Positions 429-39,325 of a stretch of DNA of 64,000 bases are shown one piece after another. Below the pieces are notes generated by a model. It worked only from the letters and a program-made list of their open reading frames with translations, ran no database searches and had not been told where the DNA came from. Position 1 is the first letter of the stretch. Each line of letters starts with the position of its first letter. This DNA is from Lampris incognitus (Eukaryota; Chordata; Actinopteri; Lampriformes; Lampridae). Where the stretch lies: NCBI RefSeq assembly GCF_029633865.1, contig NC_079216.1:60931732-60995731 (forward strand), read 5' to 3'. Both the position numbers and the translations under genes were made by a program.

Positions 429-15455
<15,027 letters not shown>

Positions 15456-25300: not shown

Positions 25301-28300
25301 TCGGTGTTGGTGAAAACACATTGTGTTAGCCCAGAGGAGAGCAAACAAACTACCAAGCAGCAGTTGAAAATACTGCGCATTTACCTACAAGTTAACAGTG
25401 CTGGAAGCAGTCGCAAGCAACACAACTTCCGTTTCATAACTGGATTATGCAGTCTTGTAAACCCAGATCATTAACAGATCACACCCATTAAACAAACAGA
25501 CACCTCCATCAAACTATCACCTTAATTTGAATACCTTGATCAAGTTGACTACATGTAAACTGAATGACTGTCAAATTGTTTATGAGGTGTGAACCATGCA
25601 TCTTAATTTTGCTGCTCATAAGTAATTATGATGCCTGGTTATTTCTATCACAGTATGTGGCATAAATAAACAGTTATTATCATTTTAGCCAGAATTATGC
25701 TTGAACCACTGGGCACCTCCATCGCAGTATTTTGAAAAAGCCAAATCTATTCAATATCATTTTAAAACAAGTTATTCTGAGAGGTGGTGAATCATTGAGG
25801 CATCTGCACTACTAACAAAACAAGTTGTTGCGAAGAGTATTTCATTGTTTGACAATGACCATGATGCCATGCTGACCCACACAACAGCGTGCAATTCATT
25901 TAAATAGCCACCAGCATGCCATGGCAACCCAGCCACTGCAGATGCACAAGCCAGCGCATTCTTAGTACCGGTCCCAAGTCTGGATAAATGGCCAGGGTTG
26001 TGTCAGGAAGGGCATCTGGGGTAAAAAAAGATTGAATACATATGTGTGAACGAGAGGGAAGACAGTGAGGACGCAAAGAGTAGAGGTGGCTAAAATGGAT
26101 GCGTTTGAATACTTGAGGTCAACTGTTCAAAGTAACGGGAAGTGCAGAAGAGCGGTGAAGAAGACAGTGAAAGCAGGGTGGAGAAGAGTGTCAGGAGTGA
26201 TCTGCGACAGAAGGGTACCAGCCAAAGTTAAAGGGAAGGTCTACAAGATGGTAGTGAGACCAGCTATGTTGTATGGTTTGGAGACAGTGGCACTAATTAA
26301 AATACAGGAGACAGAGCTGGATGTGGCAGAGCTGAAGATGCTGAGATTTTCGGTGAGAGTGACGAAGGAGGACAGGATTAGGAATGAGTATATTAGAGGG
26401 ACAGTTCAGGTTGGATGGTTTGGAGACAAAGCAAGAGAGGCAAGATTGAGATGGTTTGGACAAGTGTGGAGGAGAGATGCTGGGTATATTGGGAGAAGGA
26501 TGCTGAAGATGGAGCTGCCAGGCAAGAGGAAAAGAGGAAAGGCCAAAGAGGAGGTTTATGGATGTGGTGAGGGAGGACATGCGGGTGGTTGGCGTGACAG
26601 AGGAAGATGCAGAGGACGGGAAGAGATGGAAACGAATGATCTGCTGTGGCGAACCCTAACGGGAGCCGCCGATAGAAAAGGAAGAAGCCACCAGCATGCC
26701 ATGGCAAGCCTACATCCAACTCAATCTCAGTTCTGAGCATTAAATCCTATTGTAAAGAGTTTATTATGAGCAAATTAAGTCAAGATGCTCTCTAAAGTTG
26801 TTGAACTGACAACTGTGCTGAACTGTATTGTAACGTGCATGGATAAGAAGACACGCTGGCCGCTGGCTCGCGGGTCTGACCCTTTAGTCGAGCGGTTAGT
26901 GATGTCGCCTTGTGGTGCAGTACACCCCGTATCGAATCCCGCACCGGGCAAGAAAATAACCGGTTACATAGATGGGGAGTTTGACTGGGGCGGTACACCT
27001 GTCAAACGGTAACGCAGGTGTCCTAAGGCGAGGCGGGGAGACGAGCCCCGAGCGGGCTCTCGTTTCTGGTGTCAAGCGGCCGGCCTCCGCCAGCCGCGAC
27101 CCGCTCCGGGGACGGTGGCAGCGGTGGGATCCGGAAGTGTGCAGATCCTCAGAAGTCTCTTCGGAGCGCGGGAAGAACAAAGCGCGAGGGCGCGCTTCCG
27201 GGGAGGGTGACGACTGTAAACTACTAATAAGACACGTTAGTCCCTAGCTAACGGGTCTGACCCTTTAGCCGAGCGGTTAGTGATGTCGCCTTGTGGTGCA
27301 GTACACCTCGTATCGAATCCCGCACCGGGCAAGAAAATAACCGGTTACATTGGTGTCAGAAGTGGGATGGAGCGACCGTAAGGCCATCGGAAGCGTAGGC
27401 GCCCTGAGGCGTGAAGGAGCTGATATGCTTAAGCGCGGGGACGCGCTTCCCGAAGGAGGGGGGTAGTGTAACGTGCATGGATAAGAAGACACGCTGGCCG
27501 CTGGCTCGCGGGTCTGACCCTTTAGTCGAGCGGTTAGCGATGCCTCCTGCAGTGCGGGCGATACGGGTTCGCTTCCGGGCCGCGGCACTTCCTGTGGTTG
27601 CGTTGTCCCCCGAATTCGCTACAGTATGGTGCTTCTGCTTTTTGTGGCTATTTGAAGATGTCTAAGAGTGACAGGATCTCTAAATCCCAGTGTCGGGCAG
27701 AGAGGACATGCTTCATGAGCTACACGTTGAAAAGGTTAATGCTGCAGTTTGGCATGACTTCACAAACACAGCAAACATATTTAACATTCATCTGGCTTCT
27801 CCTCTATGACAGCAGACCTGTGTAGCGCCTTTCCCTCCATACAACAAGAACAGGGAGTAAGGAATAAACTGATACGGCTGTCTTTAGTGTTGAGAGAGCT
27901 CCTATGTTCTTGTTTTTGTCTTCGGCCTGGCTGCAAGCATGACTAATCATTAGCCATCTCGCTTCATTAGGAAAAACCAGATCCTACGTAGGTTCCATAT
28001 TAGTGAGAGAGAACAGTTCTGATACACGATATCCCATATGGAGTCAGAATCACGCCAAACATACTCATTTACTATAAAAAGCTCCACCTCAGGTCTGGAC
28101 TGAATTAATTCTATATTGAAGTGACTTTAAGCAGAAAAGACCATTTCTCCTGATACGTTACCACCTTTGAATGGTAAGTCAGCGATTACGGAGCTGGTTG
28201 TGCGCAGACATTTAAGATAAAGATTTCTTTCACACCATTTCACCAAATGCAATCATTATCTTGCAAACTTTCCACATAGCACCCACACAAAATAGGACAG

Positions 28301-31300
28301 GAATCATCACCTTCAAGTCACACACGAAAACAATCAAATAATTTGCATATCAATTTGCTTATCTTCACACTTTCTGAACGTAGACAAAGAGCACAGTAAA
28401 GTTGCATGAAAAGGTTGTTTGGCATAAATACACTGAAGCTACATGTCTTTTGATTTCGAAATATTTTGCTGGTGTCCTGATAGGAGAGTGATTATGAGGG
28501 GGTGTGAGGTGCGAGGGTGTGAAATGACAAGGCGAGAGTGAGAACAAGCAAGAAGGGCCCGGGTTGTACCTTCTGAGTGGCCAGCTCCTCTTGAAGTTTG
28601 GCCTTTTCCTGCTGCATGCGGCTGAGCTCCTCCTGCTGACTCTGGAGACGAAGTTGCATCTCCATGGGTTTGCTGCCGTAACCCTCCACCGGGGCGCCAT
28701 CGCTGGTGCTGTGGTTCTCAGCACTACGAGTAAATTTACCGCCGCTCATCATCATATCTTTGAGGAAGGGCCTCTTTGCCCGCGAAGAACTGCGTCCAAA
28801 ATCGAACGTGAATGCTGACCCAATGGAATCTGAGGGGAAATCGTTTCAGAAAGTTTCACATTGAAACTGCGCAGCTTCGTTTCTATCTTCATTTGCTCGC
28901 GGCTCACATTTACAGGTTCGAAACGCATGTGCCGGTAATAACTCACAGGAATCACCGCAACCCCAAAGAAGAAATCAAAAGTGTTTTACAACAAGCAGAA
29001 TCTTATCTTCCTCGTGGAATCCATGCTATGGACTAGAGTAAAGGTAAACGAAAGTAAAGAGTAAAGTGTTAAGCAACGGCAAGTGGAGACGGGTAACTTG
29101 ACATACGTCTGTGTGTGTCTGGTTGAGGTTTCAGTTCGGGTATGTCTTTTGGAGGAGGATCCACCAATTCCCACTCCTCTGAACTGTTGCTGGTGTAAAA
29201 CACACTCCGTCTGCTTTCACCGCCTCGCCCTTGTCGCAGATGAGACATGGAATTCCTGGAAGGACCGAGACATGACAAGTTATTCATTGAGAGCTCAGGG
29301 ATTTAAAACATTAAGAGCATCAGCATTATCACATATTCAGCCTTCCAACTTTATAAAAGCGGTTTTGAATCCAAAAAAAGAAGAACAAAGACAACTGGCA
29401 AGAGAATCCTGATGACCTGTTATTTTGCAGCACAGCTGCTGAGACGTTCTCAGGAACAGTAACAATTTATAGCACAAAGTGCCTTTGTCCGAGGCCTCCG
29501 GGCCACCAACATCTCACAGGAAATAGGCTTGCGACTGTTCGTTTGCAGTCAGCAAAGCCATACAGAAAGGAACCCTGAAACTGGAAGTTTGATTATGTGG
29601 AGGATTGGGGTGTACCCATAGCTCGATACTAGAACTTCTCGTGTTTAAGCTGAATTTCTGCCGATCACATGCCAGAGTTGCAGAAACTGCACGAAACCTA
29701 AGAGCGCGAGGAACTTAAGGAACTGGCATTTTCGGTAGAGATGACAGCTGTGGTCTCTCCATTGGCCCCGGTGATTTATGAGGATGATTTTGCACTGGCG
29801 CGGAATAGAAACCAATATTCAACAACTAATACGTGAGAAACCTCTATTCCAAGAAAAATCTGCTCCATTACAGAACATAAAAACCAAAAAATACAAGCCA
29901 AGACACCATAAAATAGCATACACGAGTCTTTCAAAGAATTCGGCTAATAGCTGTCAGCGACATTAGAGTATTTTAATTCTGGGCCTGTTTTTTCTTCCAA
30001 ACCGTCACGAGCTCATAAGATATTTGTCCAGCTTTATTTACAACTTCCCTTTCCATTTCTAGGTGAATACAAAGGTCCGACTCCAGCCTTGCATTTCTGG
30101 CATTTTACAGTCTTACATCATTTGAGCAGATGTGCTCTAGGTCCTTGAAAAGGAACTTTTAGCGGGGTGGATTACTCAAGGAAAGCAGTCCAACAGTTTA
30201 GAAACAGAAAACATTTGCAACCATTTCCTTGAAGGCAGCCAACACCAGGAAGGACTGAGGAGGTGTTTTCTTTCCTCATACAGCTGTGTAAGGCCTTTAC
30301 GCCGAGACGGTAGTGAAGCCAGTTTTGCATGCACTGAAAACAGTGTCCTTAAAGTACTTTCTCTCTGATAACTGAACGACTTGGTTCCAATACCTCATCC
30401 AGTCATTCATTACCCATACCCATCTAATCCAATTCAGGGTCTCCAACACATTGTCCTTCAAACTGGCACACTCGGACCCGCTGCAGCATAGGCCAGCACT
30501 TTTCTTTACCTGAGTTCTGTGCCCCAGTTTTTCAGGGAGAAGTTTAGGGGATTGGTGGACAAGCCAGAGGGCCCTCTGGCAGACTGCATCCCCACCATGC
30601 CCCCGCCATCTGTTTCTGTCTCCATGGCGAAGTCGCTGCGAACCTTCTCCATGCTCTCGCTAGGCTTTTCAAACAGGAAGGTATCTGAAACCCAGCACAG
30701 AGTGGCACCGTCAAAGATCTAGGCTTAAGTAACCATGCATGATTTTTTTTTTCATAGCGTGTTGCCTCTTGCCCAATTGATGTAAGATGCCTTGCATCCA
30801 ATTGAGCGGAACCTACATAATGAAAGCGAAAGCTAAACAGTCACTCACTGCTTGCTTGTGTGCATGTACTTGTCAGTCACACGAGGAACAGGCAGGACAG
30901 GCAATGAGGCCATAAATTTGCAGGGTTTGACCACTTTTAAGTCCAAATGGTTTTCTGCGTCTTTCCAGCAAACAAAATAGACACATGGCTTTTCGTTATT
31001 GTGAGCTGCTTTTCACACCGATTCATTGACGTGGAGTGTCGTTTTAGAAATCATTTGTCTTGCCTGTCTCCTCTATATTATTTATTTATTTGGATCCCCC
31101 CCCCCTTTTTCTCCCGGGTTGTTTTCGGCCAATTACCCCACTCTTCCGAGCCATCCCGGTTGCCGCTCCATCCCCTCTGCCGATCCGGGGAGGGCTGCCG
31201 GTCCCTGTGTTGGTGGGCAACGGAATAGACCGCTACGCTACCCGGACACGCTCTAATCTACAATACTTTTAATGTCAGTCATGCCACTGAAGCCTGCAAA

Positions 31301-39168: not shown

Positions 39169-39325
39169 TGTAACGTGCATGGATAAGAAGACACGCTGGC
39201 CGCTGGCTGGCGGGTCTGACCCTTTAGTCGAGCGGTTAGCGATGTCTCCTGCGGTGCGGGCGACACGGGTTCGCGTCCCGGCCGCGTCACTTACTGTGGT
39301 TGTGTTGTCCCCCGAATTCGCTGCA
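39169..39325 (+). mobile_element. Solo LTR with tRNA-like module
   Basis: A 157-bp sequence starting TGTAACGTGCATGG and ending CGAATTCGCTGCA, the same length as LTR3 of the element at 26829-27623. ATAG flanks both sides (39165-39168 and 39326-39329), a clean 4-bp target duplication. Inside are an A-box-like TTTAGTCGAGCGGTTAGCGA and a B-box-like GGGTTCGCGTCCC. Confidence 0.75.

Follow-up and report, generated by a model that had tools for sequence, protein, structure and literature searches.

Helenus elements are TRIMs with tRNA-like LTRs (TRIMp3; Kojima 2024, PMC10886601); the sections of that paper drawn on here describe short, gene-less LTR elements with 4-bp target-site duplications (TSDs) in animals and list tRNA-Leu as one of the primers in vertebrate families. 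Cassandra, a plant TRIM, has 5S-derived LTRs and occurs in tandem LTR-internal-LTR-internal-LTR copies (PMC7215508, available part). Chimeras of retroelements and cellular sequence are also known. LTR elements switch template to cellular mRNA at microsimilarities and the chimeras integrate with LTR ends (PMC5408686, reviewing Tan et al., in the passages available), while for chimeras of 28S rRNA and LINE-1 the accessible portion of PMC13174262 reports 18 loci. Intermolecular plus-strand transfer has been proposed for HIV-1 proviruses with asymmetric LTRs (PMC9278108, in the portion available).

The element described here, from the genome of Lampris incognitus, resembles Helenus in being short and gene-less with a 4-bp TSD, in LTRs that by eye look tRNA-like and in a PBS of putative tRNA-Leu type, and differs from it in that the copy under study combines three LTRs of two types and carries a patch of 28S sequence; the term '28S' does not occur in the available main text of the Helenus paper. 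With Cassandra it shares a TRIM structure, tandem copies and, judged by eye, LTRs that include sequence like that of a Pol III gene. As in LTR-mediated retroposition, cellular sequence lies inside an LTR element, microhomology is found at two of the three junctions and a TSD encloses the whole; here, however, the captured sequence is 28S rRNA, it sits at the boundary of LTR and primer-binding site (PBS), its pieces are permuted and the element is non-autonomous. Joining of a 28S fragment to a retroelement is common to this locus and the 28S/LINE-1 chimeras, but the latter, according to the available text, are target-primed LINE products with the RNA piece at the L1 5' end and not at a PBS. The two ends of the integrated element differ, as in the asymmetric HIV-1 proviruses, although 24 of the 26 cases given for HIV-1 have a partly deleted 3' LTR, whereas here a V-type tail stands against an H-type tail. 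Among the matches listed from titles and abstract openings of the open-licence literature, there was no report of 28S sequence at an LTR/PBS boundary.

A composite Helenus-like element and its genomic relatives

The window (the whole stretch of 64,000 nucleotides that was analysed) carries at 26829-27623 a 795-bp element with TG...CA ends and GTAT on either side, which is a composite Helenus-like TRIM. Its order is LTR1, 28S insert, internal region 1, LTR2, internal region 2, and LTR3 (Table 1). Two LTR types are distinguished, namely H, represented by LTR3 (157 bp, 3' end TTCGCTACA), and V, represented by LTR2 (135 bp, 3' end CCGGTTACA).

Table 1. Positions of the composite element's parts and flanks within the window.
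Feature	Position	Strand	Remarks
Target-site duplication GTAT, left	26825..26828	+	GTAT immediately before TGTAACG; identical four bases after LTR3
LTR1, 140 bp, mosaic	26829..26968	+	H-type LTR head, V-type LTR tail
28S piece A	26970..27033	+	downstream part in 28S; AGATGGGG...CCTAAGGCGAG
GGCGAG	27028..27033	+	present where A ends and again where B starts
28S piece B	27034..27113	+	upstream part in 28S; GCGGGGAG...CTCCGGGGAC
Primer-binding site GGTGGCAGCGGTGGGAT	27114..27130	+	first T of TGG replaced by C of 28S
Internal region 1	27131..27214	+	also in L044, L053, L055, L076-L080
LTR2, 135 bp	27215..27349	+	taken as V type
Internal region 2	27350..27466	+	starts with T + PBS TGGTGTCAGAAGTGGGAT
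LTR3, 157 bp	27467..27623	+	taken as H type; ends CTACA, no 28S behind
Target-site duplication GTAT, right	27624..27627	+	directly after LTR3

We assign the element to the Helenus-like TRIMs from its size, PBS and TSD, with tRNA-likeness judged by eye. A length of 795 bp, like the 424-431 bp of copies with internal region 2 between two H-type LTRs, is of TRIM size (less than about 1 kb), and none of the stop-to-stop ORFs of at least 170 aa that were checked overlaps the element. By eye, TAGCCGAGCGG in LTR2 and GGGTTCGCTTCC in LTR3 resemble the published Helenus boxes A and B; ARAGORN found no tRNA within 26000-28400. A candidate polypurine tract, GAAGGAGGGGGG (27452-27463), was identified by eye three bases upstream of LTR3. 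The PBS at 27114-27130, which is putatively of the tRNA-Leu type, is identical in its letters in L002, L007, L008, L013, and L015, and differs at one position each from L006 and from one place of L005, while L003/L004 and the other place of L005 have another PBS type.

A search of the 1.48-Gb genome gave 4231 candidates, of which 40 were scored, yielding 81 matches; this sample of copies is biased by a query with an H-type LTR at its end. In addition to the window and to L003/L004, which represent a place on C3, 38 other places were examined, and these include simple elements of the H-internal region 2-H form as well as composites with or without internal region 1. Ends and TSDs were tabulated for the window and for 27 of these 38 loci, L076 being entered twice, which gives 29 rows, or 27 two-ended rows once L053 and L068, which have no right end, are set aside; the 11 loci in which one or both ends looked incomplete or rearranged (L043, L044, L050, L052, L054, L055, L062, L064, L069, L072, and L080) were left out of the TSD count. 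The TSD is an exact 4-bp repeat, the length given for Helenus families of animals, in 22 of the 27 two-ended rows and is not exact in L047, L048, L059, L073, and L076a (start set 4 bases early). Where the junction behind the LTR is uninterrupted (11 rows, two of them the same place), all 10 distinct cases read LTR, one T, and then a PBS of the TGGTGGCAGCGGTGGGAT or TGGTGTCAGAAGTGGGAT type, two with one difference. In these junctions the PBS lies one base behind the LTR; in the window copy it is shifted by 144 nt. The tandem LTR-internal-LTR-internal-LTR arrangement, reminiscent of Cassandra arrays, is seen in L003/L004, L048, L058, and L077. Elsewhere in the window there is a further H-type LTR at 39169-39325, a solo LTR with what by eye seems to be ATAG on both sides, and two H-type LTR pieces in opposite orientations lie at about 7073-7303.

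A permuted 28S segment between LTR1 and the primer-binding site

LTR1 ends in ...GGTTACA at 26968. With L079, an uninterrupted composite copy, as reference for the limits of the insert, 144 nt stand in place of the one T that follows TTACAT, and the alignment picks up again at GGTGGCAGCGGTGGGATCC (27114; also given as GGTGGCAGCGG). The first-pass annotation had placed an insertion exactly between the end of LTR1 and the PBS and had read it as two pieces of 28S rRNA in reversed order; comparison with L079 and with the 10 uninterrupted junctions bears out the position, and the alignments below bear out both the source and the order. The insert matches the Rfam eukaryotic LSU model with an E-value of 2.6e-5 and 30.8 bits, below the gathering score of 50 bits; at gathering thresholds Rfam reports nothing in the whole window. 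BLAST against two genomic 28S-like copies, both of degraded appearance, aligned piece A at 94% over 72 nt (E 6e-27) and piece B at 86% over 99 nt (E 5e-28). In these two copies B comes first with A directly after it, while in the window A precedes B. The 53-nt core of A, from TTTGACTGG to GGCGAG, is 100% identical to a canonical vertebrate 28S segment. Over its full 64 bases A departs from that segment, and from the AGGTGGGG form, at one position, three bases from the left junction. Where 28S-like copies can be aligned with most of piece B, identity is 83-94%, and by eye B shows about five transitions in 80 relative to their commonest letters.

Only part of a PBS-like motif separates A from B where they adjoin in 28S-like copies. 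Together with six motif bases, AGTGGC, the insert makes up one contiguous 28S segment of about 150 nt. At the junction of B and PBS there is a 7-nt identity, GTGGCAG, common to the PBS and most 28S-like copies, and the switch lies at most one base from the pairing site of the tRNA 3' end. The annotation's observation that 28S at this point resembles the PBS is upheld, with the motif AGTGGCAGGTGGGG (from dispersed copy L014) scoring 17 against the 18-nt PBS. None of the 9478 sense-strand positions of one 9.5-kb 28S-like locus reaches that score; the locus's own degraded motif scores 15, two other sense places 16, and the antisense strand up to 18. The junction of A and B shows a short imperfect homology, with 28S-like copies reading mostly GG(C/T)GAG at both sites (GGTGAG or GGCGAG at the start of B in most of them) and both sites continuing with CGGGGAG, with an indel between them. 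At the junction of LTR1 and A (TTACAT/AGATGGGG), no clear microhomology is seen. Since A and B are adjacent in 28S-like copies and meet at a short homology, the patch is a homology-guided, one-off capture of a contiguous 28S segment of about 150 nt, opened at the PBS-like motif. Pairing of the PBS (or tRNA end) with 28S most likely guided the event, because the insert together with AGTGGC forms one segment opened at the motif and closed at GGYGAG.

None of the three junctions was found a second time in the assembly. Allowing up to three mismatches, the A-B and B-PBS junctions each match once, and the LTR-A junction gives one exact match and two 3-mismatch matches, whose agreement with the insert spans only 15-16 nt and whose 3-kb loci show no match to LTR1. 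All 12 candidates for the LTR-A query were scored; 11 places match the 28S part only and the twelfth is the window. Neither A nor B was found at E 1e-4 in the other 38 TRIM stretches, nor in L002-L008. A recurrent family of LTR-28S elements is not supported on these grounds.

Sequence resembling 28S is abundant in the genome: of 341 first-look candidates 40 were scored, and these gave 42 matches. No functional rDNA turned up in the assembly. A conserved 28S segment had 63 candidates, the best among the 40 matches scored reaching 95%, and an exact canonical 28S pattern matched nowhere. This is weak evidence of absence, since words of very high frequency are passed over in such searches and the species could depart from the pattern at one base, several copies reading CTCGGGGA there. 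The parent of an insert junction may therefore sit in unassembled rDNA. Two near-duplicate, degraded-looking 28S copies on different contigs (G000:C452:5397-5845 and C22:38193380-38193828) are identical over 400 nt around the motif.

A dispersed 28S-derived repeat, in which a 28S segment ending GTGGCAGGTGGGGAGTTTGA is followed by a non-28S tail like AATGTAAGAAATGTTTCTTTAA, was seen in most of 19 loci (L010-L028; 40 of the 341 first-look candidates scored), and looks like a SINE with a 28S head. It could have supplied B alone (best match L010, 93.6% over 78 nt). In most of the 19 copies the 28S part stops at GGGGAGTTTGA or shortly behind it, and in L010 and L017 it stops before that point, so that they do not give A. 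A single 28S source for both pieces is simpler. A TRIM LTR is present in 8 of the 19 dispersed-repeat loci, each of about 3.1 kb (L012, L013, L015, L018, L021, L022, L026, and L027), compared with 2 of 19 loci that hold a 28S pseudogene and 3 of 20 tiles of the window (Fisher p 0.019); once four control pairs that cover the same place and the near-duplicates L029/L030 are each counted as one, the control figure becomes 2 of 14 (p 0.044). A preference of TRIM insertion for the neighbourhood of this repeat is possible, the signal being weak and the controls ones of convenience.

Unequal LTRs and the origin of the insert

The standard replication scheme of LTR elements places any sequence copied between the primer and U5 at the ends of both LTRs, outside the right one, and equalises the tails of the two LTRs. 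Neither outcome is seen here. LTR3 ends ...CTACA directly on the TSD (CTACA|GTAT), and the diagnostic sites of LTR1 read H at the first 12 and V at the next three, the last one read fitting neither type. The change of type lies inside GGGTCTGACCCTTTAG(T/C)CGAGCGGTTAG, a block that holds an A-box-like motif. Of the 27 two-ended rows, seven combine a V tail on the left with an H tail on the right, namely the window copy, L045, L046, L047, L049, L051, and L079; all but L047 have an exact TSD. The switch was read in six of these seven copies, L051 being left out, and in L053, and falls inside the A-box-like block in all seven left LTRs; L049 and L053 have one further H letter downstream of it. In the window copy the switch lies after the T/C site, and in the other six before it. 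Such mosaics are what would remain if V-type strong-stop DNA moved to a 3' end of H type and a transfer from one cDNA to another came next. They can also arise by DNA recombination, since the switch lies in the longest block common to both LTR types.

The first-pass annotation had explained the insert by template switching onto 28S rRNA during strong-stop synthesis. As an event on one molecule this is unsupported, since it predicts 28S sequence outside the right LTR, and that LTR ends cleanly at the TSD; the idea holds only if the second strand transfer was intermolecular. We nevertheless lean towards the insert having arisen during reverse transcription and having been fixed when this TRIM copy integrated. 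In the particle, the tRNA-primed or PBS-copying strand would pair with 28S rRNA at AGTGGCAGGTGGGG, copy the 28S sequence upstream of the motif (B), slip at GG(C/T)GAG onto the end of A, copy A back to the AGTGGCAGGTGGGG motif, and then resume on the LTR. In a two-molecule step, plus-strand strong-stop DNA of the structure H head-V tail-A-B-PBS would become the left end now seen. This two-molecule form of strong-stop switching is offered tentatively; a later switch, during minus-strand copying across the PBS on another RNA molecule, would fit equally well, and under both versions the right end would stay clean and the LTRs unequal. Taken further, the patch could be a fossil of tRNA-Leu extended on 28S rRNA, in which the primer would have annealed to the PBS-like motif and the first cDNA would have copied rRNA before the element RNA, with rescue by transfer to a second cDNA that would account for the unequal LTRs as well; we regard this as conceivable and short of probable. 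The structure, its single occurrence in the assembly, homology at two junctions out of three, the clean TSD and the unequal LTRs are observed; RNA as the template, the timing, and the two-molecule step are inferred.

Reverse transcription as the source is favoured by the position of the insert exactly at the LTR/PBS boundary, by a B-PBS switch at a PBS-like 28S motif and an A-B switch within imperfect homology, by integration of the element as a unit between GTAT repeats, and by unequal LTRs with the switch in the A-box-like block. The insert also does not look younger than the element (about 6 differences in 144 against about 9 in 510 private to the window copy; Fisher p 0.11, a weak test with an uncertain baseline for B); the private branch of the window copy has a three-point mean of 1.7% (range 1.2-4.7%). 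Against it stand the single copy, the left junction with no clear microhomology, the PBS that reads CGG where a tRNA-templated one should start TGG, the mosaic left LTR that DNA recombination can explain, and the failure to find functional 28S in the assembly. In addition, the 28S stretch bears no mark separating an RNA from an rDNA template, and the AGTGGCAGGTGGGG-type motif is not the best PBS match within the degraded 28S-like locus.

The main rival is DNA repair after integration, which we hold to be a serious possibility though not the probable course of events. An ordinary composite copy would have been broken at its PBS and filled from rDNA or 28S-like sequence, the right end priming at GTGGCAG and copying B leftwards, the left end copying A rightwards, and the two new ends joining at GGCGAG, which gives the swapped order with no circle. 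The order of the pieces and both homologies fit such a repair, the right LTR end and TSD would remain untouched, and 28S-like sequence is common in the genome; yet the TGGTGGC needed to prime the left end is wholly missing there, the break must fall at the LTR/PBS boundary, and the age comparison, weak as it is, does not make the insert look younger. A one-turn geometry, in which the insert and six motif bases complete a circuit with both ends at the motif, would suit a circular 28S fragment of about 150 nt (RNA or DNA, closed at GGYGAG, with an expected junction CCTAAGGCGAGGCGGGG) copied once round or recombined at the PBS-like motif. There is no evidence for such a circle, however, a linear slip at the same homology yields identical letters, and the seven bases TGGTGGC due left of a simple crossover are missing, so that we consider it improbable.

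A LINE-mediated route, by which a 28S fragment would have entered an element already in place, as in the 28S/LINE-1 chimeras, has in its favour the dispersed 28S-derived repeats of this genome and the entry of 28S fragments into genomes with LINE-1 (PMC13174262, available portion); by eye, however, no TSD, poly(A), or LINE sequence surrounds the insert, which moreover fits the PBS motif exactly, and this route appears very unlikely. That only one copy exists would also be expected of an assembly artefact joining a rare rDNA read to a TRIM, but a misjoin would not, in our judgement, typically show homology at two junctions or differences within the inserted sequence, and such an error is hardly credible here.

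The patch has the look of one copying error that became fixed, not of a functional feature. It is an unusual single-copy fossil of a type of event already known, with no evident function and in an unusually informative position. If it arose by reverse transcription, rRNA could serve as a template within the particles of LTR retrotransposons, and abundant RNAs with PBS-like motifs could divert DNA synthesis at its start point; the signature would be testable, as LTR/PBS boundaries and unequal LTRs in high-copy TRIMs could be used to count mis-priming and two-molecule transfers. Should the reading as a fossil of primer extension on 28S be correct, the LTR/PBS boundary of TRIMs would act as a natural recorder of primer misplacement and of strand transfers between two genomes.

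Elsewhere in the window, ORFs resemble by eye vertebrate genes and LINE and Tc1-like fragments, and a long tandem repeat at 13184-14940 contains open frames built of repeated units, of one kind on the minus strand and of others on the plus strand.
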